A stretch of DNA of 64,000 bases from Herbiconiux sp. L3-i23 (GTDB taxonomy: Bacteria > Actinomycetota > Actinomycetes > Actinomycetales > Microbacteriaceae), in assembly GCF_023734115.1 (NCBI RefSeq), contig NZ_AP025737.1:434001-498000 (forward strand). Reading direction: 5' to 3'. The notes under the pieces were generated by a model that was not told the DNA's origin, made no database searches, and saw nothing but the letters and a program-made list of their open reading frames with translations. The translations under genes and the position numbers were made by a program. This document shows, piece by piece, positions 869-20,845 of the stretch; the first letter of the stretch is position 1, and every line of letters starts with the position of its first letter.

Positions 869-1912
869 TCAGCGCGCGCCGGCGAGCGTCTCGACGGTGC
901 GCCACCGCTCGGCCCAGGTCGGCGCGGTCCCGCCTGTCGCGGGGGCCGTTCCCGTTCGTTCGAGCACCGCGGCGACCGCCGCGTCGGCGCCCTCGGGGAG
1001 CTGCACGAGGTTCGGGGCGTCGATGCCGAGGTCGAGGCCCGACGCGATGACCCAGCGGCCGCTCGCCAGGGCGTTCCACGTCTTCGCCGGAGCCAGGGTC
1101 GCGCTCCGAGAACCGCGGTAGGGCAGCAGCACGAACTCGTGCCGGGCGACGAGGGACGCCAGCGTGGCGACGTCGACGGGCGGATGCACGGGGATGCCGG
1201 CTGCCTCGAGCGCGGCACGATCCTCAGTCGAATCGACGACGCCGACGACCTCGACCGTGACGCCGTTCGCGGCGAGGGCGGTCATCACGGTGATATCGGT
1301 CTCCGCGCGCACAGCGCCGAAGTAGATCGCCGAACGCGGGGCGGGCGCCTCATCGACGGCGGTCTCGAACGGAGCATCGGCGGCGGGCGGCACGACGGTC
1401 GCGTCGATGCCGCGCTGCTGGAGGGTCCGACGCATGCCGTCGGCGTCGGTGATGACGGCGGAGGCCGAGGCGGAGATCCGTCGTTCGGCCGACCGCCAGC
1501 CGATCGGCGGATACCAGGTCGCCGGCACCGTGGCCCAGTCGAGCACCGCGTCGTACACCACGACGGGCGCCCCGGTGCGGGCGACGTACCACTCGGTCCA
1601 GCGGTCGGGGATGTAGGCGAGCACCATGTCGTAGTCGACGGGGCGCTTCAGCCACGCCGACATCGGCAGCAGCCGCACACCGTCGGGGGTGGGCGGCGCT
1701 AGGGAGGGAGTCTCCGCATCACGGCCGAGCGCCCCACGGAGTCCGCTCATCAGGTGGGCGGCGTTGCGCGGATGCGGCGGCAGGAAGTCGACCTGCCACC
1801 CGGCCTCTGCCGCGGCGACGGTGAGGGCGTGGTGGCGCTGCCACAGGTAGTCCCAGCGCACGCTCGACGCCACGAGCAGACGCCGTGCAGGCGCGGTGCG
1901 GTCCGCCGTCAT
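869..1912 (-). CDS. Glycosyltransferase, GT-B-like
   Basis: This 347-residue protein starts ATG-ACG-GCG. Its start codon overlaps the stop of the upstream polymerase gene by four bases (ATGA), which fixes the start and shows an operon. The N-terminal half has an acceptor-type domain (SSVRWDYLWQRHHAL) like TuaH/GumK-type polysaccharide glycosyltransferases. The C-terminal half has a Rossmann-like donor domain ending in LLPYRGSRSATLAPAKTWNALASG, typical of the nucleotide-sugar site in GT-B enzymes. It probably adds one sugar to the EPS repeat unit on the cytoplasmic side. A longer open frame running to 3301 is only a frame coincidence over the neighbouring genes. Confidence 0.8.
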   Translation of the reverse strand: MTADRTAPARRLLVASSVRWDYLWQRHHALTVAAAEAGWQVDFLPPHPRNAAHLMSGLRGALGRDAETPSLAPPTPDGVRLLPMSAWLKRPVDYDMVLAYIPDRWTEWYVARTGAPVVVYDAVLDWATVPATWYPPIGWRSAERRISASASAVITDADGMRRTLQQRGIDATVVPPAADAPFETAVDEAPAPRSAIYFGAVRAETDITVMTALAANGVTVEVVGVVDSTEDRAALEAAGIPVHPPVDVATLASLVARHEFVLLPYRGSRSATLAPAKTWNALASGRWVIASGLDLGIDAPNLVQLPEGADAAVAAVLERTGTAPATGGTAPTWAERWRTVETLAGAR

Positions 1913-3192
1913 CGCGATCCGCCGACGGGTCGCGGACGGGAGCCCCACGTGCGTGCGTACACGAGGACGACGGCGAGGGGAAGCAGGTGCCCGGGGTCGA
2001 AGTCCTCGAGGGTGCACCAGATCAGCACCAGCACGGCGATCGCGACGGCGTAGCCGTCCCAGCTGCGCAGAGACCGGACCAATGCGTTGATCAACAGCCA
2101 GAAGAGGGCGATGGCCCCGAGGATGCCTGCCCTGAACAGGATCCCGAGGTAGGCGGAGTGCGTGGCGACGCTCGCCACGAGACCTTCCTCCTGGGGTTTG
2201 ATGCCGTAGCCGAGGATCGGCACCGGGAGCTGACGGACGAGCTCCCATGTGCGTGCGTAGATGTCGGACCGCGTCTCGAGAGATCCCTCCCGCTGCCCGT
2301 TGATCTCCTTGACCATCTCGAGGATCTGCTCGTTGAACAGCAGCACGACGATCACCGCGCCGATCGCGGCGACTATCGCGAGCGTGTAGAAGGCCATCCG
2401 GTTGCGTGCGCCGACCATCACCAGAATTCCGATGAGCACTGCGGCGCCCAACGCGAGCTGGGTCGATCGGCTGAGCGAGAGCACGACGGAGAGGGTTCCT
2501 GCGGCGACGCCGGCGACCGCCAGCACCCGCCACCACCCGCGCTCGGTGAGCAGGCTGACCGCGACGATGCAGGTCACAGCACCGAAGACCCCGGCCCAGG
2601 TGGGCTGGGCCATCATGCCGGCGGAGCGGAACGTCGCCTCGCCGAGCCAGTCGATCGAATAGAGACGGTTCTGGGCGAATGCGCCGAGCCCCGAGGGAAG
2701 GCGGCCGGCGATGCCCTGCAGCAACGGAATCGGAAGGGACGAGGGGTACGCGACGATGGCCGCCGTCACCACCGCCCCCTGAGCGGTCCCGATGACGAGC
2801 ACGATCCGCCTCAGCAGAACGTCGAGGTCGATCTCCTGCGAGACGGTGATGAGCGCTGCGATGCTCAACCAGACGAGGAGGTTGCCCCCGAGTGATGCCA
2901 CGCGTCCGAAGTCCAGGCCGAAGGCGAGGACGCCGATCGGCAGCGAGAACACGAGAGCCCCGAGCACGCCGATGGCGGGAAGGGCGGCGGCGACTGGTCC
3001 CCGGCGGATGAGGTAGAGGAACGCCAGCACCCCGACGAGAACCCAGTAGAAGCCGCCGAGTCCGACGAGCCACAGCAGCGGGTATGCGAAGGAGAGGATC
3101 GAGAAGCTGCGAACGAATCGCACCGCGTTGGGGCTCGCTCCCAGCGCGGCAGCAGGACCCGGGCGAAGGGCCGTCGCGACGGTGGCGTTCAC
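1909..3192 (-). CDS. O-antigen ligase/polymerase (Wzy)-like membrane protein
   Basis: The protein has 427 residues and about a dozen hydrophobic segments. A large loop in the second half contains ETRSDIYARTWELVRQLPVPILGYG, shown here only by its ends as it matches the Wzy_C/O-antigen ligase hallmark, and a serine-rich LSLSRSTQLALG segment just before it. This architecture is that of polymerases that join undecaprenyl-linked repeat units outside the membrane. The gene is coupled by four-base overlaps to the GT2 gene upstream and the GT-B gene downstream, so the three are one operon. Two further proteins of this kind lie at 16.7-19.4 kb, so which one is the polymerase and which a ligase is unresolved. 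Confidence 0.85.
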   Translation of the reverse strand: MNATVATALRPGPAAALGASPNAVRFVRSFSILSFAYPLLWLVGLGGFYWVLVGVLAFLYLIRRGPVAAALPAIGVLGALVFSLPIGVLAFGLDFGRVASLGGNLLVWLSIAALITVSQEIDLDVLLRRIVLVIGTAQGAVVTAAIVAYPSSLPIPLLQGIAGRLPSGLGAFAQNRLYSIDWLGEATFRSAGMMAQPTWAGVFGAVTCIVAVSLLTERGWWRVLAVAGVAAGTLSVVLSLSRSTQLALGAAVLIGILVMVGARNRMAFYTLAIVAAIGAVIVVLLFNEQILEMVKEINGQREGSLETRSDIYARTWELVRQLPVPILGYGIKPQEEGLVASVATHSAYLGILFRAGILGAIALFWLLINALVRSLRSWDGYAVAIAVLVLIWCTLEDFDPGHLLPLAVVLVYARTWGSRPRPVGGSR

Positions 3193-4016
3193 ACCGCTGC
3201 GGTGGCCGTGAGCAGTGACGCGCGGTGCTCGAGGAAGCGACGGTAGAGGGCGCCGCGGCTGGAGGAGATCCGCTCGGCGAGGAGCTCCTCGAATCGGTCA
3301 TCGTTCGGAGTGACGCCGAGCACGTCGTGCGCGAGGGCGGAGTACGACTCGCGGATCTGCGGCTCGGCGAGCGCCGAGCGCGCCCAATCCTCGGCGGCGG
3401 TCACCTGCGTGGCGTGGTGCCGGTAGGCCACGGTCGGGCGGCGCAGACGGGTGATCCGTTGCCCGTCAGCCGCGAGTCTGAGCCACAGGTCGTAATCCTC
3501 GGCCGCGCAGACCCGGTAACCGCCGACCGCGAGCAGCGCGCTCCGAGGCGCCAGCATCGTGGAATGGCAGAGCGGATTCCCGAAGAGCAGCGCGAGGCGC
3601 ATCCGCTCGGGCGGCAGCGCGAGCGGAATGGACGGCTTCGGAACGCGGTAGCCGCTTCCGAAGTCGATGATCCCGCTGAAGATCACGTCGGCCCGGTGAT
3701 GAACGGCACGCAGCTGCGCGCGGAATCGGCCGGGGAGCACGATGTCATCGGCGTCCATGCGGGCGACGTAGCGGCTGTCGGTCGCTTCGATGAGCTCGTT
3801 GAGGCTGTTCGCGACACCCTGCGATGTGGTGTGGGTCATGACCCGGATCCGCGAGTCGCCGATGGAGGCGATCCGTTCGGCGGTGGAGTCGGAGCTCCCG
3901 TCATCCATGACGACGATCTCCGAATCGTCCGGCAGCGCTCGCAGCGTGGAGCGCAGAGCGGTACCGATGTGGTCCTCGGCGTTGCGGGCAGGGACGATGA
4001 CGCTGAGTAGAGGCAT
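3189..4016 (-). CDS. Family 2 glycosyltransferase
   Basis: The 275-residue protein has a clear GT-A fold. SVIVPARNAEDHI opens the nucleotide-binding domain, IVVMDDGSSDST gives the first acidic motif, and RMDADDIVLPGR holds the metal-binding DxD-type motif at about residues 90-100. AEDYDLWLRLA in the acceptor domain matches the ED-x-D-L catalytic-base region of the family. It overlaps the polymerase gene by four bases and lies 24 bases downstream of the BY-kinase gene. It very likely builds the EPS repeat unit in the cytoplasm. Donor and linkage are unknown. Confidence 0.9.
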   Translation of the reverse strand: MPLLSVIVPARNAEDHIGTALRSTLRALPDDSEIVVMDDGSSDSTAERIASIGDSRIRVMTHTTSQGVANSLNELIEATDSRYVARMDADDIVLPGRFRAQLRAVHHRADVIFSGIIDFGSGYRVPKPSIPLALPPERMRLALLFGNPLCHSTMLAPRSALLAVGGYRVCAAEDYDLWLRLAADGQRITRLRRPTVAYRHHATQVTAAEDWARSALAEPQIRESYSALAHDVLGVTPNDDRFEELLAERISSSRGALYRRFLEHRASLLTATAAV

Positions 4017-4040: not shown

Positions 4041-5444
4041 TCAGTCGACCGGCGCGGCGACGGCCGCGGACGTCTGAGTTCGCGCCTGCGGGCGGCGGGG
4101 TTCGGAGGTGTAGGCGCCGTAACCGTTCGCGTCGGGGCCGCTACGCGGGAGCATTCCGAGGACGACGCCGAGCACGCGTGCGCCGACCTGATCCGTGATC
4201 GCCAGGGCGCGCTTCAGCTGATCGCGGGTCACCTTACGCGCCGCTGCGACGACGATGACACCGCTCGAGCGCACCCCGAGGATCGCGGCGTCGCTGACGG
4301 GGAGCAGGGGAGGGGCGTCGATGATGATCGTGCCGAAGCGCTTCTTGAGGGTGGCGAGCATCGAGACCATGGCCGGCCCCTGCAGCAGTTCGCTGGGGTT
4401 GGGCGGGATCTGACCTGCGGGCAGCACCATCATGCGCTTGTCGCCCCATTCCTGCAGAGCCTCGTCGAGCGTGACGTCGCCGATCAGCACGTCGGTCAGT
4501 CCGATGCCGCCGTCGATCCCGAGATAGTTGGAGACCCGGGGGCGGCGGAGGTCCGCATCGATGAGCAGGGTCGAGTTGCCGGTGTCCGCGACGGTGATCG
4601 CCAGATTCGTCGCCGTCGTCGTCTTGCCTTCGCCTTCGCGGGCCGAGGTGATCACGATGGTGCGGGTGCCCCGACTGATGTCGAGGAACTGCAGATTCGT
4701 GCGGAGCGTGCGGAACGCCTCGGCGCGGACGCTGCGCGGGTTCGTCAGGGCGACCAGAGGCTGGGTGCGTGCCGATCGATCCCGCGAGATGCGTCCGAGC
4801 AGCGGCTTGTCGGTGACCCGCTCGATGTCGTGCTCGCCGCGGACGCGCACGTCGACGGCCTCGCGGACAACGGCGACGATCACTCCGAAGGCGAGCCCGA
4901 TGAGCGCACCGAGAGCCAGGTTGAGCGGCGCGTTCGGCGACGCGGGCGACAGCGGGACCGTCGCAGGCTGGATGACGGTGATGCGCACGGGCGACTGCTC
5001 CGCCTCGGCGCCGGTGAGCGTGGTGACGGCTTGTCCGAGGCTGGCGGCGACCGCGTTCGCGATCGCTGCAGCACCCTCGGCGGTGGCGTCGCTCGCCGTG
5101 ATGTCGATGACGACGGTGCCGAGCGTGCTCGTGGCTGTGACGCGTCCGGCGAGGGACTCGGCGGTCTCCTGCAGGTCCAGCTCGTCGATCACCGGGTCGA
5201 GCACCAGCGGCGTCGTCGCGACATTCGCGTAGCTCGATACGACCTGTTGCGAGTAGCTGGTGCCTTCGCTCAGCTCCGGGAGGCTTCCGCCGGTCTGCGT
5301 GGAGACGAAAACCTTGGTGGCCGATTCGTAGGACGGGTCGGAAGCCAGCGAGTAGGCGCCGCCGGCTGCGGCACCGAATACGGTGAGCAGCACGATGGCG
5401 ATCCAGCTGCGTCGGAGGACTCGGAGATAGTCGAGGAGGGACAC
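4041..5444 (-). CDS. Wzz/Wzc-like chain-length protein fused to BY-kinase
   Basis: This 467-residue protein combines a polysaccharide co-polymerase domain with a bacterial tyrosine kinase. The N-terminal Wzz part lies between membrane segments at about residues 12-32 and 175-195. The kinase has Walker A in REGEGKTTT (Lys at about 274), Walker A' in LLIDADLRRP (about 293-302) and Walker B in IIIDAPPLLP (about 373-382). The C-terminal tail has only a two-tyrosine GYGAY segment before a Pro/Arg/Thr tail, instead of the long Tyr cluster of Wzc. Such proteins control EPS chain length by cyclic autophosphorylation. The cognate phosphatase is probably the gene at 10486. It heads the leftward glycosyltransferase operon. 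Confidence 0.92.
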   Translation of the reverse strand: MSLLDYLRVLRRSWIAIVLLTVFGAAAGGAYSLASDPSYESATKVFVSTQTGGSLPELSEGTSYSQQVVSSYANVATTPLVLDPVIDELDLQETAESLAGRVTATSTLGTVVIDITASDATAEGAAAIANAVAASLGQAVTTLTGAEAEQSPVRITVIQPATVPLSPASPNAPLNLALGALIGLAFGVIVAVVREAVDVRVRGEHDIERVTDKPLLGRISRDRSARTQPLVALTNPRSVRAEAFRTLRTNLQFLDISRGTRTIVITSAREGEGKTTTATNLAITVADTGNSTLLIDADLRRPRVSNYLGIDGGIGLTDVLIGDVTLDEALQEWGDKRMMVLPAGQIPPNPSELLQGPAMVSMLATLKKRFGTIIIDAPPLLPVSDAAILGVRSSGVIVVAAARKVTRDQLKRALAITDQVGARVLGVVLGMLPRSGPDANGYGAYTSEPRRPQARTQTSAAVAAPVD

Positions 5445-5724: not shown

Positions 5725-5946
5725 GTGGCCGACCGTGCCCAATTCCTGTCCTTCCTCGAGGAGATCCTCGAGGCCCCCGGCGGCTCCGTCGCCTTCGAAT
5801 CCGACCTCGAAGAGCTTGGGTGGGATTCTCTGTCCGACCTCGGCTTCATCGCGGGCGTCGACGAGCGCTTCGGCAAGACGGTCGACCCCGAGCGTCTCGC
5901 CGAGAGCGAGACGCCGAACGACCTCTACACGCTCGTCTTCGGCTGA
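5725..5946 (+). CDS. Stand-alone acyl carrier protein
   Basis: The 73-residue acidic protein has an acyl-carrier helix II signature, GWDSLSDLGFIAG. Ser35 in the D-S-L motif is the expected site for the 4'-phosphopantetheine arm. Size and charge suit a type II acyl carrier protein. The GTG start follows an AGGTG-type ribosome site. Two bases separate its stop from the GTG of a KAS III-like gene, which predicts a functional pair. The housekeeping fatty-acid ACP normally sits in a fab operon, so this copy is probably dedicated to a local acyl modification. The acyl group is unknown. Confidence 0.85.
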   Translation: MADRAQFLSFLEEILEAPGGSVAFESDLEELGWDSLSDLGFIAGVDERFGKTVDPERLAESETPNDLYTLVFG

Positions 5947-5948
5947 GC

Positions 5949-6953
5949 GTGGCCGCCCGCATCGCCGCCGTCAGTTACCACCTGCCCGCGGCAACACTGA
6001 GTAACGCCGACCTCGCGGCCGAGTTCCCCGAGTGGTCGGTCGAGAAGATCGGTGCGAAGACCGGCATCGTCAACCGTCACGTCGCGGCGGACGACGAGTT
6101 CGCCTCCGACCTCGCGGTGGCCGCCGCGCAGCGCCTCTTCGACGAGCACGGCATCGACCCGAATTCGATCGACTACGTGCTGCTGTGCACCCAGAGCCCC
6201 GACTACTACATGCCGACCACCGCGGTCCTCGTTCAGGAGCGTCTTGGCCTTCGCACCAGTGTCGGCGCGACCGACATCACCCTCGGCTGCTCCGGTTACG
6301 TCTACGCGCTCGGGCTGGCGAAGGGCCTCATCGAGTCGGGTCAGGTCCGCAACGTCCTCGTTCTCACGACCGACACGTACACCCGTTTCGTCAACCCGCG
6401 CGACAAGTCCGTGCGCACCCTGTTCGGCGACGGTGCCTCCGCCTCGCTCGTCACCGACGACGGGGGCGCCGACGCGCTCGGCAGCTTCGTCTACGGCAGC
6501 GACGGATCGGGCGGAGGGCAACTCGTCGTTCCGAACGGAGGGCTCAAGGGGTCGGAAGCCTATCCGGCCGCTTCCCCCGAAGCCCGGGGGTTCGAGAGCA
6601 ACGGCTACGACCTGTACATGGACGGTCCCGGCATCTTCAACTTCACGCTCGAGATCGTCCCCAAGTCGGTCGACGCTGTGCTCGCCAAGGCCGGCCTGCA
6701 GCAGGACGAGGTCGACCTCTGGGTGTTCCACCAGGCCAACGCCTTCATGCTCGAGCACCTGCGCAAGAAGCTCGGGGTGCCTTCCGAGCACTTCGTGGTC
6801 GCCATGGGCGAGTCGGGGAACACCGTCTCGTCGACCATCCCCATCGCCCTCGTCGAGGCGGAGCGTGCCGGGCAGCTGACGAGGGGCATGAAGGTCATGA
6901 TCCTCGGCTTCGGCGTCGGGCTCTCTTGGGCCGGGGCCGTCCTCGAGTGGTGA
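5949..6953 (+). CDS. 3-oxoacyl-ACP synthase III (KAS III)-like enzyme
   Basis: The 334-residue protein has the thiolase-fold KAS III catalytic set: Cys114 in TLGCSGYVYAL, His261 in WVFHQANAF and Asn291 in GESGNTVSS. Known members either start acyl-chain synthesis by condensing acyl-CoA with malonyl-ACP or, in CerJ/DpsC-type variants, handle unusual acyl transfer. The GTG start at 5949 lies two bases after the ACP stop and gives the standard family N-terminus. The longer upstream open frame is a shadow across the kinase region. Placement in an EPS locus with an ACP and two HxxxD acyltransferases argues for a dedicated acyl supply rather than bulk fatty-acid synthesis. Confidence 0.88.
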   Translation: MAARIAAVSYHLPAATLSNADLAAEFPEWSVEKIGAKTGIVNRHVAADDEFASDLAVAAAQRLFDEHGIDPNSIDYVLLCTQSPDYYMPTTAVLVQERLGLRTSVGATDITLGCSGYVYALGLAKGLIESGQVRNVLVLTTDTYTRFVNPRDKSVRTLFGDGASASLVTDDGGADALGSFVYGSDGSGGGQLVVPNGGLKGSEAYPAASPEARGFESNGYDLYMDGPGIFNFTLEIVPKSVDAVLAKAGLQQDEVDLWVFHQANAFMLEHLRKKLGVPSEHFVVAMGESGNTVSSTIPIALVEAERAGQLTRGMKVMILGFGVGLSWAGAVLEW

Positions 6954-7849
6954 TCGGCAGAGGAGCTCGCGGCGTCGTCGCGCGATTCCTGGCGGTCGGC
7001 GCGGCGGTCCTGGTTCTCGCGGGGTGTCAGGCCGCCGCAGCCGATCCGACTCCCACCCCTTCGCCCACCTATGACGTCGGCCATCCTCAGGGTCTCGGTT
7101 ACTCGGCGTCCGACGGCAGCTGGTTCGCCATCGACGCGTGCATTCCCGAGGCGGCCGGCGACGCGGTCCCCGCGGTGGTGCTCGTGCACGGTGGCTCGTT
7201 CACCGGGGGAAGTCGCACCGACCTCGCCCCGGTCTGCGACGCGCTGGCGGCGGCCGGTATGGCGGCCTTCTCCGTCGACTATCGACTGGTGCCCTGGGGG
7301 GTCTTCCCCTCGCAGGCGCAGGATGTGGCGTCAGCGATCGACTGGGTGCGCGCACCCGAGCAGGCCGACGCGTTCGGCCTCGACCCCGACCGGGTCGCGC
7401 TCCTCGGCGCCTCGGCGGGGGCGGTGATCACGGCTCAGCTGGCTACGGGCGTGACCGGGATCGGTTTCGACAACAGCGTGCTGGCGGGTGCCGTCATGCT
7501 TTCCGGCGGGTACGACTTCACCGCGCCCTCCGACGGTCTCGGACTCGACCTGATCTCCGCACTCGAGGGCTACCTCGGTTGCGACATCGCCTCGTGCGCC
7601 GCTCTCGGCACCGCGTCACCGGTGACGGCGGCCTCCGCCGATGACCCGCCGATGCTGCTCATCCACTCGGACTCCGAATTCATCCCGCTCGATCAAGCCG
7701 AGCGGTTCGCCGACCGATTGACCGAGGTCGGAGTCGACAACGAATTGCTCGTCGTGCCGGGGGAGGCTCACGCCGAATGGATCTACCAGGTTGATCCTGC
7801 TGCGGTCACCGCGACCGCCGACTTCCTGCGGACAGTGCTCGCCGGCTGA
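6950..7849 (+). CDS. Lipoprotein alpha/beta hydrolase (esterase/lipase-like)
   Basis: The GTG start overlaps the KAS III stop by four bases (GTGA), so translation is coupled. The 299-residue product has an Arg-rich N-terminus, a hydrophobic stretch and a lipobox LVLAGC with Cys26, so it is probably anchored outside the membrane. The hydrolase domain shows the oxyanion LVHGG (about 78-82), the nucleophile Ser155 in LGASAGAV, an acidic residue near HSDSEF (241-243) and His274 in GEAHAEW, as in carboxylesterases of the BD-FAE/lipase class. It may remove or transfer acyl groups on exported polysaccharide. The substrate is inferred from context only. Confidence 0.85.
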   Translation: MIGRGARGVVARFLAVGAAVLVLAGCQAAAADPTPTPSPTYDVGHPQGLGYSASDGSWFAIDACIPEAAGDAVPAVVLVHGGSFTGGSRTDLAPVCDALAAAGMAAFSVDYRLVPWGVFPSQAQDVASAIDWVRAPEQADAFGLDPDRVALLGASAGAVITAQLATGVTGIGFDNSVLAGAVMLSGGYDFTAPSDGLGLDLISALEGYLGCDIASCAALGTASPVTAASADDPPMLLIHSDSEFIPLDQAERFADRLTEVGVDNELLVVPGEAHAEWIYQVDPAAVTATADFLRTVLAG

Positions 7850-9019
7850 TCACGGGGCGAGGGCAGCCCGTGATTCGAGCTCGTCACGGAACGCCCGCTC
7901 GAACCGGGTGAGGTCGAACAGTCCCGACTCGTCCCAGACCGAGACCCGCGGGGTGCCGCCCATGGTGGCGACGAAGACGAAGGTCGCCGATGGCCACGGT
8001 CCGATGGTCGCGCACCCGAAGCTGCCCCGACCCGCCCACAGCGTCTCCGGGAGAGCGAGCTTGCTGTTCAGCAGCGAGATCGACACGGCATACCCCGGCT
8101 GGTAGGGCGCGCGTCGAAGCACCGACTTGAGGCGGTCCCTGCCACGCCGGTAGACGGCGATCAACAGTGAGACGGCCGGAGCGTTGGAGGCCGACAAAGC
8201 GGCGAGCCGGGCTGTGATCGCAGAGGGAGCCCAGTCCGTCGTCTGCAGTGAGCCGAACGGCATCACCGAGACGAAGTTGCCGCGCACCCGGCCGTCGACG
8301 AGGTGTCGGAGGTCGATGGGGATCGAGACCGGCATGTCGGCATCGCCGCGCTGCACGGCGCGCAGAGCCGAGACCCCGATGCTGGCGATGCGGGTGTTCT
8401 TACTCGAACGGCCCTTGCGGCCCCGCTCTTTGGCCCGCATGAGTGTGCGCTGATCGTCGTCGTCGAGTTCGAAAGCGACGAAGCCCGCCGATTCCGACGA
8501 GTGCGCGAGGTCCGAGTGCGGCGGGGTCACGGAGACGACCGAGTGCGCGTCGTGCTGCGCCCGGCGGAACGCGTCGAGACTCGCGCGGTTCAGAACCGTG
8601 AGCAGAGCAGCCGTCGCGCGCTTCGCCAGAGGGCGGCGATCGGGTTCCGGCGCCGGCGCACCGGCGGCGACCGCGGCGAGATGACCGATCGCCTCGATCG
8701 CACCGGAGCCGTCGAAGACGGAGTGCCGCAGCATGACGGCGATCGAGTTCCCCGACACGGTGATCGCGAGGGGCAGCCCCGCGTAGCCGCGGCGGTGCGC
8801 CTCAATGATCAGGTCTCGTTCGGAGAGACCGTCACCTGCGTCGGTGATGCTGCGGGCGACGAGCAGATCGAGATCAGCCCCACTGGGAACTCGGACGGCG
8901 TCTGAGGTGCGCAAGAGTGAGTGCAGAGCCGGACCGAGACGGCTCATCGCATCCTGCGCCAGGCCCCCGAACACGAAGACGTTGTCGTAGCCGGAGTAGA
9001 TCGCGTCCCGGGACTTCAT
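7850..9019 (-). CDS. HxxxD-type acyltransferase (condensation/PapA-like), copy 1
   Basis: The 389-residue protein is not one I can name, but it carries the HxxxDG signature of CoA- or ACP-dependent acyltransferases (condensation, PapA, wax-ester synthase fold): His99 and Asp103 in LRHSVFDGSG. A second conserved segment, IPIDLRHL followed by GNFVSVMPFG, matches the second half of that fold. It is clearly paralogous to the next gene, sharing SKNTR, the I-P-x-DLR block, GNFV and VWDESGLFD near the end. It converges with the lipoprotein hydrolase, with adjacent stops. With the nearby ACP and KAS III gene, it probably moves an acyl group to a sugar or lipid. The acceptor is unknown. Confidence 0.7.
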   Translation of the reverse strand: MKSRDAIYSGYDNVFVFGGLAQDAMSRLGPALHSLLRTSDAVRVPSGADLDLLVARSITDAGDGLSERDLIIEAHRRGYAGLPLAITVSGNSIAVMLRHSVFDGSGAIEAIGHLAAVAAGAPAPEPDRRPLAKRATAALLTVLNRASLDAFRRAQHDAHSVVSVTPPHSDLAHSSESAGFVAFELDDDDQRTLMRAKERGRKGRSSKNTRIASIGVSALRAVQRGDADMPVSIPIDLRHLVDGRVRGNFVSVMPFGSLQTTDWAPSAITARLAALSASNAPAVSLLIAVYRRGRDRLKSVLRRAPYQPGYAVSISLLNSKLALPETLWAGRGSFGCATIGPWPSATFVFVATMGGTPRVSVWDESGLFDLTRFERAFRDELESRAALAP

Positions 9020-9025
9020 GCGGGG

Positions 9026-10219
9026 TCACCCTTCGATGGCGGCATCCGCGGTGCGTGTGGCGAGGAGTGCTCGGAATCGGTTCTCGAACTCGTCGGCGTC
9101 GAACCAGCCGGACTCATCCCACAGCGAGAGCCGAACCGTTCCCCCCATCGTAGAGACCGAGATGAGGGTGGCCGAATGCCACGGGCCGAATGTGGTCGCC
9201 CCGAAGCGACGCTTCGTCGCGTGCCAGAACTCCTCGGGGAAGTCGTGGCGCATCGTCAGAAGGCTGATGGTCACGCTCGGGGTGGCGTTCGGGTCGGATT
9301 TCGCGGGTCGTATCCGTGCTTTCGCGCGGTTAACGGTGTATCGCGTGATCGACTCCGCGAAAGTGAGTACCGGTGTGCCGTTGCTCCCCGCGCGCCCGAG
9401 GCGCTCGGAGATCGCCCCGGGCGACCAGTCGCTCGTCCGCAAAGCGCCGTAGGTGTCGGTGGCGACGAAGTTCCCGGTGATGCGGGCGTCTCTGATGTAG
9501 CGGCGCAGATCGACGGGGATGAGCACGGGGCGGTCATCCTCTCGTGGCGCCATCTGGGCGAGCGCTTCGACGGCGATGCTGCACAGCCGGGTGTTCTTCG
9601 TCGACCGCAGAGCGGCGCCCGGCTCCTCACGCAGCGATCGGATCTCCTCGCGCGACAACTCGAAGCTGACGAAGTTGCCCGGGGGCGTCACTGCGGGTGC
9701 GTCGGCGACGACGGGTACAGACGTGCTCCGCTCTCGACGCCACAGTTGGAACTGCTCCCGTCCGGCGGCGGTCACCTGTCGCAGCGCCCGCAGCAGCGGC
9801 AGTCGCGCGAGTGGGCGGTCGTCGAGCGTGAATTGTTCGCCCGCCGCGACTCCGGCCAGGTATCGCACGATCTCGAGCGCGCTGGACCCGTCGAAGGCCG
9901 CGTGCGAAAGCTTGATGGTCACGGTGCGGTCGGCCGACGCGATGAGCAGCGGCAGGACGGTCAGCTCGAGGTCCCGCGTGGCGATGAGCGCCCGCTCGGA
10001 CGAGACGTCGAGGGAGTGGACCGACGCCGCAGCCCGGTCGTGGATCTCCTCGACCGGGTAGCGCCATGCGGCAGGCCAGTTGCGGCGGGCGTCGAGAACG
10101 GTGGGCTCGGCGAGGTAGCTCTCGAGAGCTCGGCGAAGACCGGCGAGAGCGCGATCGCTCACATCGGAGAAAACGGCGATGATCTCGTACGCACGGTACT
10201 GTTCGTCGCGCAGCCTCAT
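9026..10219 (-). CDS. HxxxD-type acyltransferase (condensation/PapA-like), copy 2
   Basis: The 397-residue paralogue of the downstream gene has catalytic His106 and Asp110 in LSHAAFDGSS. It also has STKNTRLCSIAVEAL, IPVDLRRYI, RITGNFVATDTYGAL and LSLWDESGWFD, each matched at the same place in copy 1. The ATG at 10219 (MRLRDEQYRAYEI) aligns with the N-terminus of copy 1 (MKSRDAIYSGYDN); the 35 residues upstream in frame look non-coding. The stop is six bases from copy 1, so they are co-transcribed. Two non-identical copies suggest two acceptors or a heteromeric enzyme. No membrane segment or signal peptide is visible, so it probably acts in the cytoplasm. Confidence 0.7.
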   Translation of the reverse strand: MRLRDEQYRAYEIIAVFSDVSDRALAGLRRALESYLAEPTVLDARRNWPAAWRYPVEEIHDRAAASVHSLDVSSERALIATRDLELTVLPLLIASADRTVTIKLSHAAFDGSSALEIVRYLAGVAAGEQFTLDDRPLARLPLLRALRQVTAAGREQFQLWRRERSTSVPVVADAPAVTPPGNFVSFELSREEIRSLREEPGAALRSTKNTRLCSIAVEALAQMAPREDDRPVLIPVDLRRYIRDARITGNFVATDTYGALRTSDWSPGAISERLGRAGSNGTPVLTFAESITRYTVNRAKARIRPAKSDPNATPSVTISLLTMRHDFPEEFWHATKRRFGATTFGPWHSATLISVSTMGGTVRLSLWDESGWFDADEFENRFRALLATRTADAAIEG

Positions 10220-10485: not shown

Positions 10486-11118
10486 GTGGATCACTCCTCC
10501 TTTCCGGTCACCCCGGACCGGCTGCTCGTCCTCTGCCGCGCCAACGTCTGCCGCTCCGCGCTCGCCGAGTTCCGGCTGAACCGCGCCCTCGAGCGCTCCG
10601 GCGGCCACGACGGCATCGAGATCGTCAGCGCCGGCACCGACGCCCGGCCCGGTTCCCCGATCTGCGCCGACGTCGCTGCGCGGATCTCGCGCGAAGAGGG
10701 CGGCGCCCTGTTCGCGAACTCGCATGCCTCGATGGCGTTGACGGACGAGCTCATCGCATCGTCGGCGCTGGTGATCACGATGACCGCACGTCAGCGGGGC
10801 ATCGTCGCCCGCATGCTGCCGGGCAGCCAGCACAAGACCTTCACCTTGCACGAGGCCGTCGCGCTCGCCTCCGTCGTCGGCGACGGGATCACGGGACTCG
10901 ACAGCCTCGAGGCGGTCGCCGCCCGACTGCACGGCGCCCGCTGGCGCGCCGCCCGCTCGGTCGAGGACGACACGATCGAAGGGCTGCCCGTCGATGTGTT
11001 CGATGGGCACTCGCACCGGTCGCGGGATCACCGTCGCACCATCGCGGCGGTGCACTCGGCCGCCGACACCCTCGGCGTCTCACTCGGCCGTCTGGTGCCG
11101 CGCAGTGTCGCAGCCTGA
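10486..11118 (+). CDS. Low-molecular-weight protein-tyrosine phosphatase (Wzb-like)
   Basis: The 210-residue protein begins with the P-loop of LMW-PTPs: CRANVCRSA, a C-x5-R motif with Cys17 as nucleophile and Arg23. The usual xGNxCRSP is changed to RANVCRSA, so the motif's G is replaced by A and its P by A. The general-acid Asp should lie near VDVFDGHSH (170-173), where the classical DPY triad is not present. At 210 residues it is longer than the usual 150-160. It probably dephosphorylates the BY-kinase at 4041 to reset EPS assembly. The start is GTG at 10486. The atypical loops make substrate range uncertain. Confidence 0.82.
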   Translation: MDHSSFPVTPDRLLVLCRANVCRSALAEFRLNRALERSGGHDGIEIVSAGTDARPGSPICADVAARISREEGGALFANSHASMALTDELIASSALVITMTARQRGIVARMLPGSQHKTFTLHEAVALASVVGDGITGLDSLEAVAARLHGARWRAARSVEDDTIEGLPVDVFDGHSHRSRDHRRTIAAVHSAADTLGVSLGRLVPRSVAA

Positions 11119-11445: not shown

Positions 11446-12891
11446 ATGAGCCGCGCGAAGGCGGTCGCTCGCGGAGCGCTCTGGAACTACCTGGCTCAGA
11501 TCGCGACCGTGGTGCTGCAGCTCGGTTACGCGGCAGTGACCTCACGCCTCCTCGACCCGCACCTCTTCGGTGTGTTCGGCGCTGCCCTGACCAGCGCGAC
11601 CCTCATCAACCTGCTCGCCCTCGCCGGTCTGCCGCAGATCGTGGGGCGGATGAACACCCTCGAACCGCGCCGCCTCGTCGGCCTGCTCGCCTACGCGGGC
11701 GCGGTCGGAGCGGTCGCCGCCACCGTGATGCTGCTGTCCGCTCCGCTGTGGGCGCTGCTCTGGGGCGTCCCCGAATCGGTGTCGGTCCTTCGTGTCATGG
11801 CCATCACCTCGTTCGTCTCCCCGCTCGTCGCCCTCGGCAGCGGATTGTTGCTACGGCTCGGCGAGTTCCGCCGCCTCGCCACGTTCACCTTCGTGAGCAA
11901 CGTGGTCGGCATGGCGGTCGGCGTCGCCGCCGTGTTCGTCTTCCGCAGCGCCGAGACGCTGGTGTTCAGCACGATCGTCGCCCAGTCGCTGATCGCCCTG
12001 GCGACACTCGTCACCTCTCGGAAGCACTTCGCGGCACGGTTCGACCTGAAGGCGATGCTCGAGGACGTCGGCTTCAGCGGCAAGACGGCGGTGTCGGGCA
12101 CCCTCTCCTACTGGGCGGGCACGGTCAGCAAGCTGGCCCTCACCCAGGGATTCGGCACCAGCACGCTCGGATACTGGAACCGCGCCGAAGCGATCACGAC
12201 CACTCCCTTTTATCAGCTGTACACCGCGCTCACCCAGGCGGTGTACCCGGAGTTCCGGCACGACATCGAGTCGCAGGAACGCACCCGTCGTGTCTGGACC
12301 GACATGCTCGCCATCGCCGGCTGGGTGTGCTTCCCGCTCGGCGCCGTCGTCGCGATCGCGGTGCCCACCGCAGTCGCCGTGCTGTTCGGCCCCGAATGGG
12401 AGCAGGCAGGCTACATGGCCCAAGGGCTCGCCCTCGTCGGAGGGGTGCAGCCCGTCGTGTTCCTCCTCATCAGCGGCTTCGAAGCGCTCGGCCGCTTCCC
12501 GTGGCTGTGGACGGGATACCTCATCTCGCTGGCCGTCAACCTCACCGGCGGCATCACCGGCGTGCTCACGGGCTCGATCCTGCCGATCATCGCGGGCATC
12601 TTCCTCGCCCTCGTGATCATGCACTCCTTCCACCTCGTCGTCGGATCGCGCAGCGGGCTCGTCGATGTGCGTCGCCTCCTCGGCCATTACGCGGGCATCG
12701 TGCTGTTCGCGGGCGCGCTCGGCGGAGTGCTCTGGGTCGCTCTGAACGTCGCCGCGGTGTGGTCGATCACCCCGTGGCTTCTCGCCGGAGCGGTCGCCGT
12801 CACCGCGGCTCTCGTGCTCCTGCTCTGGAGGCGCCGCAACGTCTTCCCACCCCTCGCGCTCGCGAGGGCGTACGGTCTGCTGAAAGGCTGA
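11446..12891 (+). CDS. Wzx-like oligosaccharide flippase (MOP superfamily)
   Basis: The 481-residue protein has about 12-14 hydrophobic segments and the MOP N-terminus RGALWNYLAQIATVVLQLGY, followed by TSRLLDPHLFGVFG. Length and layout match Wzx proteins that flip undecaprenyl-linked oligosaccharide repeats across the membrane. KAVARGALWNY and FYQLYTALTQAVYPEF are typical family segments. Its stop is one base from the ATG of the GT4 gene, so the two are co-transcribed. It would act after the glycosyltransferases and before the Wzy-like polymerases. Confidence 0.9.
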   Translation: MSRAKAVARGALWNYLAQIATVVLQLGYAAVTSRLLDPHLFGVFGAALTSATLINLLALAGLPQIVGRMNTLEPRRLVGLLAYAGAVGAVAATVMLLSAPLWALLWGVPESVSVLRVMAITSFVSPLVALGSGLLLRLGEFRRLATFTFVSNVVGMAVGVAAVFVFRSAETLVFSTIVAQSLIALATLVTSRKHFAARFDLKAMLEDVGFSGKTAVSGTLSYWAGTVSKLALTQGFGTSTLGYWNRAEAITTTPFYQLYTALTQAVYPEFRHDIESQERTRRVWTDMLAIAGWVCFPLGAVVAIAVPTAVAVLFGPEWEQAGYMAQGLALVGGVQPVVFLLISGFEALGRFPWLWTGYLISLAVNLTGGITGVLTGSILPIIAGIFLALVIMHSFHLVVGSRSGLVDVRRLLGHYAGIVLFAGALGGVLWVALNVAAVWSITPWLLAGAVAVTAALVLLLWRRRNVFPPLALARAYGLLKG

Positions 12892-12892
12892 G

Positions 12893-14041
12893 ATGCGAAT
12901 CCTGACCGGAGTCCTGATCCTCGCGCCCGCCGGCGGCATAGAACTGTGCACCTACCAGGACGGCGGCGTGCTGGTCGAGCGCGGGCACGAGCTCGACATC
13001 CAGTACCAGGTCGACGGTCCTCAGCACGCCGACTACGAAACGGCCGGCATGAGCGTCGTCGGCCCGGTGGAGTTGATCGCCGAAACACGGCGGCCGGTGA
13101 AGACGCTGCGCGCGTTCCTCCACGCGTGGCGTCTGGCGCGCAGACGGAAGCCCGACGTGCTGTGGCTCAACCGCTCGGAGCACATCATCTGGGCCCAGTT
13201 CCTCTCCACCCTGCTTCGCGTGCCGATCGTCACCCATCTCCATCACGCCCCCAACTTCCGCCAGACGAACCGGCTTTACCGCGGCGTCTCGAGCTTCATC
13301 TCGGTTTCCGAGCACACTCGGCAGCAGTGGATCGATGCGGGGATCCCTGCCGAGAAGATCGCCGTCGTGCACAACTCCATCCCGCTCGAGGCGTACCCGG
13401 TCGGTGATCTGCCCGAGCGGCAGGTCGCTCGTGCGCGGCTCGGGCTCGACGATGGGGCACGAGTCGCGCTGTACTGCGGTCGACTCACCCGTGAGAAGGG
13501 CGTCGACACTCTGGTCGAAGCGTGGCGACGTCGATCCGATCCCAACGCCGTGCTGGTGCTCGTCGGCCGCGCCGAGACCGACACGTCGTGGTTGCCGGAA
13601 GCACTCGACCGCCTGCCCGCCGGCTCGTGGCGGATGTTCGACGAGACCCGCGACATCGTGCCGTTCCTGCATGCCGCCGATGTCGTCGTCGTGCCGACAC
13701 CCGAACACGAGGCTTTCGGTCGCGTCGTCCTCGAGGGACTCGCGTCGGGCCGCCCGGTGCTGGCCAGTCGAGTGGGAGGGATCCCCGAGATCCTCACCGG
13801 CGCGATGGAACGCTTCCTCGTGCCGCCGGCCGACGCTGGCGCCCTGGCCGACGCTCTCGATGCGACGCTCGATTGGCGGACGCAGGAGCCGACCCTCGGC
13901 GCCGACGCCCGACGCTGGGTGGAGGAGCGCTTCCCGTACGACGCCCACGTCGACGCGGTGGAGGCCGCCTTGTCGAGTGTTGCGCGCCCCCCGTTCGGGG
14001 CTAAACGGTTGACGCCGGCCGCCTCGGCGGGTCAGTCTTAG
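12893..14041 (+). CDS. Family 4 glycosyltransferase
   Basis: The 382-residue GT-B enzyme has the C-terminal donor site of GT4: YCGRLTREKGVDTLVEAW, then PTPEHEAFGRVVLEGLASG with the E-x7-E motif and SRVGGIPEIL. The N-terminal half contains the acceptor-side glycine-rich start (APAGGIELCTYQDGGVL) and THLHHAPNF. The ATG is one base after the flippase stop. It probably adds a sugar to the EPS repeat. The end of the gene (about 13982-14000) overlaps a C6-GTTC-G4 motif that may control the next gene. Confidence 0.9.
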   Translation: MRILTGVLILAPAGGIELCTYQDGGVLVERGHELDIQYQVDGPQHADYETAGMSVVGPVELIAETRRPVKTLRAFLHAWRLARRRKPDVLWLNRSEHIIWAQFLSTLLRVPIVTHLHHAPNFRQTNRLYRGVSSFISVSEHTRQQWIDAGIPAEKIAVVHNSIPLEAYPVGDLPERQVARARLGLDDGARVALYCGRLTREKGVDTLVEAWRRRSDPNAVLVLVGRAETDTSWLPEALDRLPAGSWRMFDETRDIVPFLHAADVVVVPTPEHEAFGRVVLEGLASGRPVLASRVGGIPEILTGAMERFLVPPADAGALADALDATLDWRTQEPTLGADARRWVEERFPYDAHVDAVEAALSSVARPPFGAKRLTPAASAGQS

Positions 14042-14156: not shown

Positions 14157-16682
14157 GTGACCTCCCGACGCCCCCTTCGTCTCGTCCTTGCCGCCATGCT
14201 GCCCGTCGCCATCTTCGGTGCCGTGCTCTCTGCGCCGACGGCCGCCATCGCGGCGCCCGACTGCTCAGCCGGCAGCACCCTCAGCGTCGTCGCTCATCAG
14301 GACGACGACATCCTCTTCCAGGCGCCCGACCTCGCCGCCGACCTCGCCTCCGACCGGTGCGTGCAGACCGTCTACGTCACGGCCGGCGACGCGGGCGACT
14401 CCGTCTGGTACTGGCAGTCGCGCGAAGCCGGAGTCAAGGCGGCACACGCCCTGATGTCCGGACACGCGAACTCGTGGACCGATTCGGTGCAGCGAGTCGC
14501 CGGCGCCGACGTCGCGGTGAGCACGCTGAACGGCGACGAGCGCGTTTCGCTGGTGTTCCTCCGCCTCCCGGACGGCGGCATGACCGGTGGCGGCACGGGG
14601 GTCAACGATTTCGAGAGTCTCGAGAAGCTCGAGCGCTCTCTCAGCGCCGAGATCCACACCATCGACGACGGTGAAGCATATTCGCGTGCCGACCTCGTCG
14701 ACACGCTCCTCGAGCTCATGACGCGCAGCGGCGCCGACGACGTGAAGACTCTCGACTTCGCCGGAGAATACGGCGACGGCGACCACAGCGATCACCACGC
14801 GGTCGGCTACTTCACCGCTGAAGCGTCGGCGCGCTACGCCGCGACTCACGACCTGAAGGGGTACACGGGATACGGGATATCGAGCAGCCCGTCGAACGTC
14901 TCGGGTGCTGATCTGACGAACAAGAAGGCGGCCTTCTACGCGTACGCCGCGTACGACTGGAAGACCTGCGCGAGCGACAGCGCCTGCGGTTCGCGACCCG
15001 AGTCGTCGTGGCTCAGCAGGCAGTATCCGGTGAGCGCGCCGCCGGTCGACCCGACCGATCCCACCGATCCGACCGACCCCGCGGGGGCCGTGAACGTGGC
15101 CTTGACCGCGTCCGTCGTGGCGAGCTCGCAGAACACCGCCGACGGACAGGGAGCGACGTCCGCCATCGACGGCTTCGTGGACGGCTATCCGGGCGACTAC
15201 ACCCGTGAGTGGGCGACGGTGCGCGGGGGTGCCGGGAGCACCATCACGCTGTCCTGGCCGACCGCGCAGACCATCGACCGCGTCGTGCTGTTCGACCGTC
15301 CCAACGCCGACGACCGCATCTCGGCGGCGACATTGACCTTCTCGGACGGTTCCAGTGTCGCCGTGCCTGGACTGGCGAACGATGGAGCGGCCACCACCGT
15401 GTCCTTCGCGGCGCGGACGACCACGAGTGTTCGACTGACCGTCAATTCCGTCAGCGCGACCACCCTCAATGTCGGACTCGCAGAGTTCGAGGTCTGGACC
15501 CCAGCGACCGGTGACCCCACGGATCCGACGGACCCGACCGACCCCACCGACCCGACCGATCCCACCGACCCGACGGACCCGACCGAGCCGACCTCGCCGG
15601 ACAACGTGGCCGCGGACGCCTCGGTCGTCGCGAGCTCCGAGAACCCGAACGACGGTCAGGAGGCCTCGGGGGCGATCGACGGCATCGTCGACGGCTATCC
15701 CGGTGACTACACCCGTGAATGGGCGACCGCCGGCGGCCGTGCCGGAAGCTGGCTGACTCTCAACTGGTCGAGCGCCGTGACCACCGACCGCGTCGTGCTC
15801 TACGACCGGCCGAACAGCGACGACCAGATCACCTCGGCGACCCTCACCTTCTCCGACGGATCGACGGTGTCGGTTCCCGCCCTCGCGAACGGCGGCGCGG
15901 CCACCACGGTCACGTTCCCGCAGCGGAGCACGGCGTGGATCCGACTCGACATCACCGGGGTGAGCTCCACCACGCTGAACGTCGGCCTCGCCGAGTTCGA
16001 GGTGTGGACGCCGGCATCGACGACTCCGACGCCGACCGACCCGACGCCGACCAACCCGACGACTCCGACGGAACCGACGGACCCGACGCCGACCGAGCCC
16101 ACGGAGCCAACGACGCCGACGGAGCCAACTGAGCCGACTGAGCCGACGAATCCTACGGAGCCGACCACTCCGACGGAGCCGACCACTCCGACGGAGCCGA
16201 CCACTCCGACGGAGCCGACCGAGCCGACGACTCCGACCGAGCCTTCGACCCCGGCGCAGCCGGCGAACGTGGCGGCGCTCGCCGCGACGTCCGCGAGCTC
16301 CGAGTCGTGGGGTTCCGGCCAGTCCTCGTGGGCGACGATCGACGGAACCGTCGACGGCTACAGCGGCGTCGACGTCACCAAGGAGTGGTCCTCGATCGGT
16401 GAGGGAGCGGGGGCCTGGCTCCAGCTGAACTGGTCGGAGCCCGTCCTGCTCGGACGCGTCGTCCTGCACGACCGCATCAACGCCGACGACCAGATCCTCG
16501 CCGCGACGCTCACCTTCAGCGACGGCAGCGTCGTCGAGGTCGGCGAACTCGACAACTCGGGTGCCGGCCTGGTGCTCGACTTCGCCCCTCGGGCGACGAC
16601 GAGCCTGCGCCTGACGATCACCACGGTCAGCGGCACGACCCTCAACGTCGGCCTCGCCGAGATCGAGGCGTGGACCGTCTGA
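14157..16682 (+). CDS. Secreted PIG-L deacetylase with three discoidin-like modules
   Basis: The 841-residue protein has a signal peptide (Arg-rich start, hydrophobic core, cleavage near AIAAPDC). The PIG-L/LmbE deacetylase domain follows, with VVAHQDDDIL at about 46-53 (AHPDDE-type zinc motif, Pro replaced by Gln) and a DHSDHHAVGY zinc segment at about 203-212. After it come three homologous F5/8C-like modules (about 311-448, 482-620, 700-841), each ending in TLNVGLAE(F/I)E. They are joined by DPT-rich and TPTEPT-rich linkers. Family enzymes remove N-acetyl groups from amino sugars. Here it probably trims or binds exported polysaccharide at the cell surface. The GTG start is 157 bases after the C6-G4 motif. 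Confidence 0.87.
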   Translation: MTSRRPLRLVLAAMLPVAIFGAVLSAPTAAIAAPDCSAGSTLSVVAHQDDDILFQAPDLAADLASDRCVQTVYVTAGDAGDSVWYWQSREAGVKAAHALMSGHANSWTDSVQRVAGADVAVSTLNGDERVSLVFLRLPDGGMTGGGTGVNDFESLEKLERSLSAEIHTIDDGEAYSRADLVDTLLELMTRSGADDVKTLDFAGEYGDGDHSDHHAVGYFTAEASARYAATHDLKGYTGYGISSSPSNVSGADLTNKKAAFYAYAAYDWKTCASDSACGSRPESSWLSRQYPVSAPPVDPTDPTDPTDPAGAVNVALTASVVASSQNTADGQGATSAIDGFVDGYPGDYTREWATVRGGAGSTITLSWPTAQTIDRVVLFDRPNADDRISAATLTFSDGSSVAVPGLANDGAATTVSFAARTTTSVRLTVNSVSATTLNVGLAEFEVWTPATGDPTDPTDPTDPTDPTDPTDPTDPTEPTSPDNVAADASVVASSENPNDGQEASGAIDGIVDGYPGDYTREWATAGGRAGSWLTLNWSSAVTTDRVVLYDRPNSDDQITSATLTFSDGSTVSVPALANGGAATTVTFPQRSTAWIRLDITGVSSTTLNVGLAEFEVWTPASTTPTPTDPTPTNPTTPTEPTDPTPTEPTEPTTPTEPTEPTEPTNPTEPTTPTEPTTPTEPTTPTEPTEPTTPTEPSTPAQPANVAALAATSASSESWGSGQSSWATIDGTVDGYSGVDVTKEWSSIGEGAGAWLQLNWSEPVLLGRVVLHDRINADDQILAATLTFSDGSVVEVGELDNSGAGLVLDFAPRATTSLRLTITTVSGTTLNVGLAEIEAWTV
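15504..15598 (+). repeat. DPT-linker coding repeat
   Basis: Near-tandem GACCCGACC/GATCCCACC units encode a (D-P-T)n linker between the first and second discoidin-like modules of the PIG-L protein. Unit length is nine bases with synonymous changes. Such repeats are prone to length change by slippage. Confidence 0.7.
16155..16208 (+). repeat. Three perfect 18-bp tandem repeats in PIG-L linker
   Basis: The unit beginning ACGGAGCCGACCACTCCG occurs at 16155, 16173 and 16191 without change and then decays. It codes for T-E-P-T-T-P and lengthens the linker between modules 2 and 3 of the PIG-L protein. Perfect identity suggests recent expansion. Confidence 0.75.
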
Positions 16683-20297: not shown

Positions 20298-20845
20298 GGC
20301 ATCAGACGCCTCTGCTTGTTGAATGCGGCCGCGTTCGCAGCGTGGTCGAGAGGCGACTCATTGGAACTGGTTCGAATTCTTGCCCGTCAGTGGAGTTCCC
20401 TGGACGAACCGATCACACCCGTCGGGTAGTTGGCTGCCGCTAACCGCACCGTGATCACGAAGTCTGGCTTCTGCCCGCTCGCCCGCGCGACGCACCTACA
20501 GCTCTTCCCAGAGGAGTGGAGAGTGGCAACCGCCAAATCAAGAGCTCCGTCGAAGGCATCCGACCCGATGGTCAAATCGATATAAGAAACACGACCGGCC
20601 TCGTCTCGCGTGGGTCGCCAGAGGGTACGCGGCCCGCGAGCACCGCCGGACAGCGGCTGCCGACGGTCGTCTCTTGTCCGGCCCCGGTGAAGCGGAGGGG
20701 GCACGGAGCTGGCACTGTCTACGGTGCGCTTTGCCAAGAAACTGGGGGTTGCTGAGATGTCAATAAGTGTGACCAAATACACCTGACATTCTGTGCTGGA
20801 TCACAGGGGTCTTCGCTGCTCGCCCTCGTGCCCCCAGGAGTCTCT
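20298..20845. other. Gene-free 0.55-kb junction between EPS locus and accessory islet
   Basis: No convincing gene was found. A 131-codon leftward open frame at 20387-20782 has no recognisable domain and arginine-rich composition at one end. A tRNA-like string (GTGGTCGAGAGGC, then GGTTCGAATTC, about 20340-20377) lacks a paired acceptor stem. Base composition becomes more AT-rich toward 20845. It probably includes the RHS promoter and the left edge of an inserted segment. Confidence 0.4.

Follow-up and report, generated by a model that had tools for sequence, protein, structure and literature searches.

The present work concerns five adjoining genes in a 64,000-nucleotide stretch of the chromosome of Herbiconiux sp. 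L3-i23 (contig NZ_AP025737.1, positions 434,001 to 498,000), the whole of which is referred to below as the window. A first-pass annotation had described these genes as an acyl module inside an exopolysaccharide (EPS) locus, and the parts that it named, which are an acyl carrier protein (ACP) with Ser35, a ketoacyl-ACP synthase III (KAS III) with its Cys/His/Asn set, a lipoprotein-like hydrolase and two paralogues carrying an HxxxDG motif (here HX1 and HX2), are all present at the positions that it gave:

5725-5946, + strand: stand-alone ACP of 73 residues, with Ser35 in LGWDSL and a PP-binding match
5949-6953, + strand: KAS III of a glycan-locus type, 334 residues, with Cys114-His261-Asn291
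6950-7849, + strand: lipoprotein-like alpha/beta hydrolase (BD-FAE/Abhydrolase_3), a probable surface esterase as predicted from its sequence
7850-9019, - strand: HX1, HxxxDG protein of predicted acyltransferase fold, 389 residues, HSVFDG with H99 and D103
9026-10219, - strand: HX2, HxxxDG protein of predicted acyltransferase fold, 397 residues, HAAFDG with H106 and D110

The interpretation preferred here, to which a probability of about one half is assigned, is that these genes are dedicated to supplying an acyl group and transferring it within a Wzx/Wzy EPS locus. The + strand ACP-KAS III-hydrolase group and the - strand HX2-HX1 group are convergent, with stop codons that abut at 7849/7850, and the HxxxD genes therefore lie outside the ACP-KAS III operon. 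A scan for promoters and terminators gave no signal exceeding those of shuffled sequences.

The HxxxD proteins and their predicted fold

HX1 and HX2 are 38-40% identical to each other. In an alignment of 12 members of their family the HxxxDG motif is invariant in all 12, and since 10 of the 11 aligned rows other than HX2 are only 21-30% identical to HX2, the motif is not a chance occurrence. The invariant positions include His106, Asp110, Gly111, Asp229, Asp237, Arg239, Gly249, Asp368 and Gly371 (HX2 numbering). Neither HX1 nor HX2 has a match above cut-off in Pfam or NCBIfam; the same holds for ten of their relatives compared with Pfam, for which the best match to the superfamily was PapA_C at E=0.023 (L017), and for four relatives compared with NCBIfam. 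No transmembrane-like window was found in either protein.

The family is sparsely distributed. A search with HX2 of 398 genomes of the Microbacteriaceae, the sample used throughout, gave matches in 11 genomes including its own, and none in the eight other genomes of its own genus. When 396 genomes of the phylum were searched with a profile, four matched, again including its own, two of the other three matches being partial, while the same profile matched two of the seven genomes (G127 and G281) in the genus of G127. No match to HX2 was found among plasmids, in a search from which near records may be absent.

When the profile was compared with the PDB, 8s6l (E=5e-4) and PapA5 (E=0.23) were aligned across the HxxxD motif; a leucine dehydrogenase that fell between them (E=0.092) is presumably a chance match. 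The entry 8s6l is annotated both as a phthiocerol/phthiodiolone dimycocerosyl transferase and as the dehydratase AzeD. An AlphaFold model of HX2, built from five sequences, has a pLDDT of 67.5 and a pTM of 0.67, and a Foldseek search with it returned 319 PDB chains at E<=0.001, of which the 50 listed are condensation, heterocyclisation, epimerisation and related domains, PapA5, TRI3, SgcC5, AzeD and CmnI, with query-normalised TM-scores of 0.40-0.58. The model of HX1 is weaker (pLDDT 59.0, pTM 0.57); it matched 202 chains at the same threshold, and the 50 listed are of the same kind as for HX2, with rmsd values of 11-15. AlphaFold and Foldseek thus agree with the condensation/PapA-like fold that had been suggested for both proteins, a fold which on these models is well supported for HX2 and weakly supported for HX1, whose model is of low confidence.

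In their predicted fold and their HxxxDG motif the two proteins resemble the superfamily of PapA5, the condensation domains of non-ribosomal peptide synthetases and TRI3; they differ from it in having no Pfam or NCBIfam match above cut-off and in being linked to EPS genes. An HxxxD-type enzyme that acylates a sugar has a parallel in PtMAC2p, the acyltransferase of mannosylerythritol lipids, to judge from the available portion of the source (PMC10619693), but that enzyme acts on a fungal glycolipid and not on a bacterial EPS, and the likeness is drawn from its description. No HxxxD acyltransferase of EPS was found among the literature matches listed, whose coverage leaves out many subscription papers.

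Genomic context of the HxxxD genes

Genes for Wzx, Wzy, Wzz and glycosyltransferases lie together in the window, on both sides of the five genes, as expected of a Wzx/Wzy EPS locus:

869-1912, - strand: possible GT4-like glycosyltransferase (Glyco_transf_4 match of 23.4 bits, under the cut-off of 28.5; its G127 relative is 47% identical)
1909-3192, - strand: Wzy-like polymerase or ligase (Wzy_C)
3189-4016, - strand: GT2 glycosyltransferase
4041-5444, - strand: Wzz/BY-kinase-like polysaccharide co-polymerase, relatives of which are the usual neighbour of HxxxD genes
10486-11118, + strand: low molecular weight phosphatase (LMWPc)
11446-12891, + strand: Wzx-like flippase (Polysacc_synt_3)
12893-14041, + strand: GT4 glycosyltransferase
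14157-16682, + strand: PIG-L deacetylase whose start resembles a signal peptide, with F5/8-type C/DUF7402 domains
16693-18033, - strand: second Wzy-like protein (Wzy_C)

This EPS locus is not general within the genus, since only its own genome and G008 (35% identity), two of the nine searched, match its Wzx at E<=1e-40. The association of HxxxD genes with loci of this kind extends to other genomes. A Wzz relative lies within 3 kb of the HxxxD gene in eight of the ten loci from other genomes, and in five of those eight (L017, L019, L021, L022 and L023) it overlaps the HxxxD gene or is less than 40 bases from it; in G127 the distance is about 17 kb. The gene order in L025 is GT4-HxxxD-Wzx-Wzy. 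Within the Microbacteriaceae sample the HxxxD family thus consists mostly of EPS-locus genes.

This context bears on the nature of the acceptor. Mycobacterial PapA proteins esterify acyl chains to lipids or glycolipids, and the kinship in fold with PapA5 would suit a pathway in which the KAS III starts a chain that the HxxxD enzymes esterify, as PapA proteins do, to a lipid or glycolipid, the product being an acylated lipid or a small secreted molecule. Such a product is nevertheless quite improbable, because the HX relatives mostly lie beside Wzz, Wzx or Wzy genes, and because no further ketosynthase, acyltransferase or chain-lengthening gene was found among the scanned window genes at 107-20297.

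The ACP-KAS III cassette

The ACP, which matches the Pfam family PP-binding above cut-off (E=4.9e-9), is a stand-alone protein with a phosphopantetheine serine and adjoins the KAS III. The latter passes the cut-off of the NCBIfam model PRK09352 (283 bits, cut-off 249) and scores under that of the fabH model TIGR00747 (252 bits, cut-off 292); its closest solved structure is 3gwa (E=1.6e-99). Assignment of this gene to housekeeping fatty-acid synthesis was considered and rejected, since the protein is 50-66% identical to 12 KAS III proteins of other ACP-KAS III loci but only 30% identical to the FabH-like copy of its own genome. Cys114, His261 and Asn291 are common to the window protein, these 12 proteins and two FabH-like proteins, as expected of a condensing KAS III.

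The same residues bear on whether the KAS III could itself be the sugar acyltransferase, HX1 and HX2 then doing something else. KAS III-like O-acyltransferases of the CerJ type do exist; the CerJ group has a Cys-His-Asp triad, and condensing KAS III enzymes have Asn in place of the Asp. The window protein has Asn291 and not Asp, which makes this explanation very improbable, the least probable of those considered.

ACP matches were found in 12 of the 398 genomes (own included), and 11 of these 12 also have a KAS III of the same type no more than 1.5 kb from the ACP. The twelfth match, in G103, is part of a 293-residue protein without a KAS III match, and this genome is counted among the 12 ACP-positive genomes but not among the 11 ACP-KAS III genomes. 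Partner genes were sought in the fetched stretches of these 11 genomes by phmmer, with one query for each partner and E<=1e-6. HxxxD matches were found in only two of them, the query genome and G127. The other nine genomes (G390, G011, G324, G302, G370, G280, G355, G381 and G297) carry the same ACP and KAS III families but differ from the window in having no HxxxD match: a hexapeptide transferase is found in seven (G390, G011, G324, G302, G370, G355 and G381), a short-chain dehydrogenase/reductase (SDR) like that of L045 in five (G390, G011, G324, G302 and G370), an AT3 protein in two (G280 and G370), and none of these partners in G297. Matches to Pfam confirmed the SDR of both L045 and L047, the AT3 protein of L051 and the hexapeptide protein of L052, and the hexapeptide protein of G011 passes the NeuD/PglB/VioB model TIGR03570. 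The L045 SDR matched many SDR models, that of FabG included, all of them below cut-off among the matches listed.

With the same procedure, no L045-like SDR, which would be the reductase, was found among the open reading frames of the window or in the G127 stretches L018, L055 and L056. Neither in the window nor in the G127 stretches did the searches find a VioB/NeuD-like hexapeptide transferase (sought with the L052 protein) or an AT3-like transferase, the whole genome not having been searched for either.

The first-pass annotation had found no nameable pattern in this combination of genes; for the ACP-KAS III half this has to be corrected, because ACP and KAS III in a glycan locus have been described in the viosamine island of Pseudomonas syringae and recur within the Microbacteriaceae, so that this half is of a known kind. 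According to the available part of the source, the island contains vioS (a KAS III), acp, vioR (a reductase) and vioB, genes for making an N-(3-hydroxy-1-oxobutyl) sugar, in a pathway put forward in part on the strength of homology, which is also the basis of the roles given to vioS and acp (PMC3927599). The likeness to the window lies in a stand-alone ACP and a KAS III within a glycan locus, where they are proposed to supply a 3-hydroxybutyryl group to a sugar of the flagellin glycan; the difference is that the island adds a 3-oxoacyl-ACP reductase and a VioB transferase to these, and its product is an amide, whereas in the window neither a reductase nor a VioB-like gene was found and HxxxD genes adjoin the cassette instead.

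The association between the HxxxD genes and the cassette

The gene set is not unique to the query genome. In G127, which belongs to another genus, an HxxxD gene (34% identical to HX1) adjoins an ACP (60% over 58 residues) and a KAS III (60%). Within about 25 kb lie relatives of the window PIG-L protein (51%), Wzx (52%), GT4 glycosyltransferase (47%), Wzz (50%), the protein encoded at 869-1912 (47%) and the hydrolase (42%), so that the EPS locus of G127 is homologous to that of the window with its gene order rearranged: the PIG-L relative is 2.5 kb from the KAS III, and the GT4, Wzx, Wzz and hydrolase relatives are 9-22 kb from the HxxxD and ACP-KAS III genes. That these genes have been kept together while others moved favours a shared task. 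A flavin monooxygenase-like gene, which is not among the window genes scanned, is convergent with the KAS III gene in G127 (L018:11741-13222).

Several observations weigh against a dedicated acyl supply and transfer set. Only two of the 398 genomes have both the HxxxD and the ACP-KAS III genes, each of which occurs in 11 genomes; the overlap has P=0.033 when the query genome, itself chosen for having both, is included, and is at chance level when it is left out (one genome against 0.25 expected, P=0.23). No ACP match was found in nine of the 11 HX genomes, and no HX match in nine of the 11 ACP-KAS III genomes; no ACP or KAS III match was found in the fetched stretches of nine of the ten other HX loci. 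G321 has a KAS III at a distance of 17 kb from its HX gene, but this protein was dismissed as a cassette member, being FabH-like and 30% identical. HX relatives that lack an ACP need another donor, probably coenzyme A (CoA)-bound, and HX1 and HX2 may therefore use one as well. In both genomes that combine the two sets, moreover, they lie on opposite strands, and because these genomes share much of one EPS locus, the pairing may reflect a single evolutionary event; neither of the window Wzy proteins was matched in the G127 stretches. The link to EPS also has exceptions: for the HX relative in G229 no Wzz relative was found in 20 kb, and its four scanned neighbours are non-EPS genes, and distant HX relatives in G692 and G702 have no Wzz match in their stretches, where, as in those of G127, the gene picks were mechanical and some overlap. 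Finally, the structural models are of moderate (HX2) and low (HX1) confidence.

The chief rival explanation follows from this pattern. It supposes two separate decorations, in which HX1 and HX2 add a common acyl group from CoA (acetyl, succinyl or similar) to the EPS, and the ACP-KAS III pair supplies a different transferase, which may be encoded elsewhere in the genome. The absence of ACP and KAS III matches from most HX genomes and loci, the placement of the HX genes on the opposite strand and the chance-level co-occurrence outside the query genome all favour it, whereas the lack of a VioB-like or AT3-like transferase among the sequences searched and the adjacency of the HxxxD and ACP-KAS III genes in both genomes do not. 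It is regarded as unlikely, and the functional link of the HxxxD proteins to the ACP-KAS III cassette, in which an ACP-bound donor is presumed, as plausible.

The lipoprotein hydrolase

The start of the hydrolase contains LVLAGC, which by the usual lipobox rule we take to be lipobox-like, and matches BD-FAE and Abhydrolase_3 above the Pfam cut-offs. Its coupling to the acyl genes, which had been proposed earlier, survives in part. Its GTG start codon overlaps the stop codon of the KAS III gene, and its two best matches outside its own genome are in G127 and G281, both of them HX genomes, where the copies also start with lipoprotein-like signals; in G281 the hydrolase gene comes after the HxxxD gene, on the same strand. 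Matches at E<=1e-25 are however found in 122 of the 398 genomes (own included), and in three of five further loci chosen from the upper part of the match list (L113, L115 and L116) the hydrolase relative adjoins Wzz without an HX or ACP match, an adjacency that was not seen in L114 (a 9-kb contig) or L117. Since the hydrolase is commoner than the acyl genes and can adjoin Wzz without them, its coupling to them is weaker, and so is the case for a specific partner of the module. It is best seen as a predicted surface esterase of EPS loci, not tied to this module in particular. The pairing of hydrolase and Wzz, an EPS-locus arrangement in its own right, occurs in three genera (L113:5442-10083, L115:7065-9693 and L116:6537-8858).

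Other features of the window

The presence of two Wzy_C proteins (1909-3192 and 16693-18033) in one EPS locus, together with a match to the second of them upstream of the window (L096:11874-13919), suggests two polymers, or a polymerase and a ligase. The PIG-L protein encoded at 14157-16682 contains three DUF7402/F5-8 type C stretches, and its gene has short tandem repeats at 15513-15593 and at about 16018-16262. Farther along, in a region whose G+C is lower (about 0.59-0.64), 20828-27748 encodes a protein of 2306 residues. This protein starts with a signal-like sequence, contains PA14 stretches and matches the RHS repeat weakly. A gene for a leucine-rich repeat-like protein (27735-28898) overlaps its gene, and the two products may be a polymorphic surface protein with its partner.

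A proposed pathway and its implications

If the five genes do act as a dedicated acyl supply and transfer set, the ACP would be converted into its holo form by a phosphopantetheinyl transferase of the host, and the KAS III, as its family and its intact Cys-His-Asn triad suggest, would condense malonyl-ACP with a short acyl-CoA, which is probably acetyl-CoA, to give a 3-oxoacyl-ACP. Because no reductase was found in the module, the acyl group would either stay in the 3-oxo form or be reduced to 3-hydroxybutyryl by the housekeeping FabG. HX1 and HX2, acting in the cytoplasm, would then attach this group at one or two sites of a lipid-linked or nucleotide-bound sugar before export by Wzx, a step for which the EPS locus is observed, the fold is predicted and the donor and acceptor are presumed. 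Outside the cell the lipoprotein hydrolase, if its predicted class and location are correct, may trim ester groups as an esterase of the EPS.

Parts of this scheme have precedents. In the NodF-NodE-NodA set, which is completed by NodA, NodE is to our knowledge no KAS III and NodA no HxxxD enzyme. The likeness lies in a dedicated ACP and ketosynthase serving glycan acylation, as the available portion of PMC9048898 describes for NodE and NodF. The same portion reports O-(3-hydroxybutanoyl) groups on rhizobial EPS, which provide a precedent for such an ester on EPS, and describes no link between these groups and genes of the ACP-KAS III-HxxxD kind.

What is new in the window is an EPS-linked HxxxD family that no curated model covers, paired with an ACP-KAS III cassette that is without its usual partners, and since no curated family accounts for the HX enzymes, the cluster may have a slightly new route to an acylated polysaccharide. 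A more specific proposal, which is held more tentatively than the general one, is that HX1 and HX2 represent a new class of ACP-dependent, condensation-fold polysaccharide acyltransferases that take the place of the VioB type in the ACP-KAS III cassette, so that the Wzx/Wzy EPS would be O-acylated with a locally made 3-oxo or 3-hydroxy group and the surface lipoprotein esterase would tune this acylation.

Acyl groups influence the rheology and the recognition of bacterial polysaccharides, and the enzymes that usually attach them are AT3 membrane proteins and hexapeptide enzymes. If the interpretation preferred here is correct, the EPS-linked HxxxD family, some of whose members adjoin an ACP and a KAS III of their own, would extend this repertoire by a soluble class of enzyme, and unusual acyl groups would be predicted on the EPS of some Microbacteriaceae.

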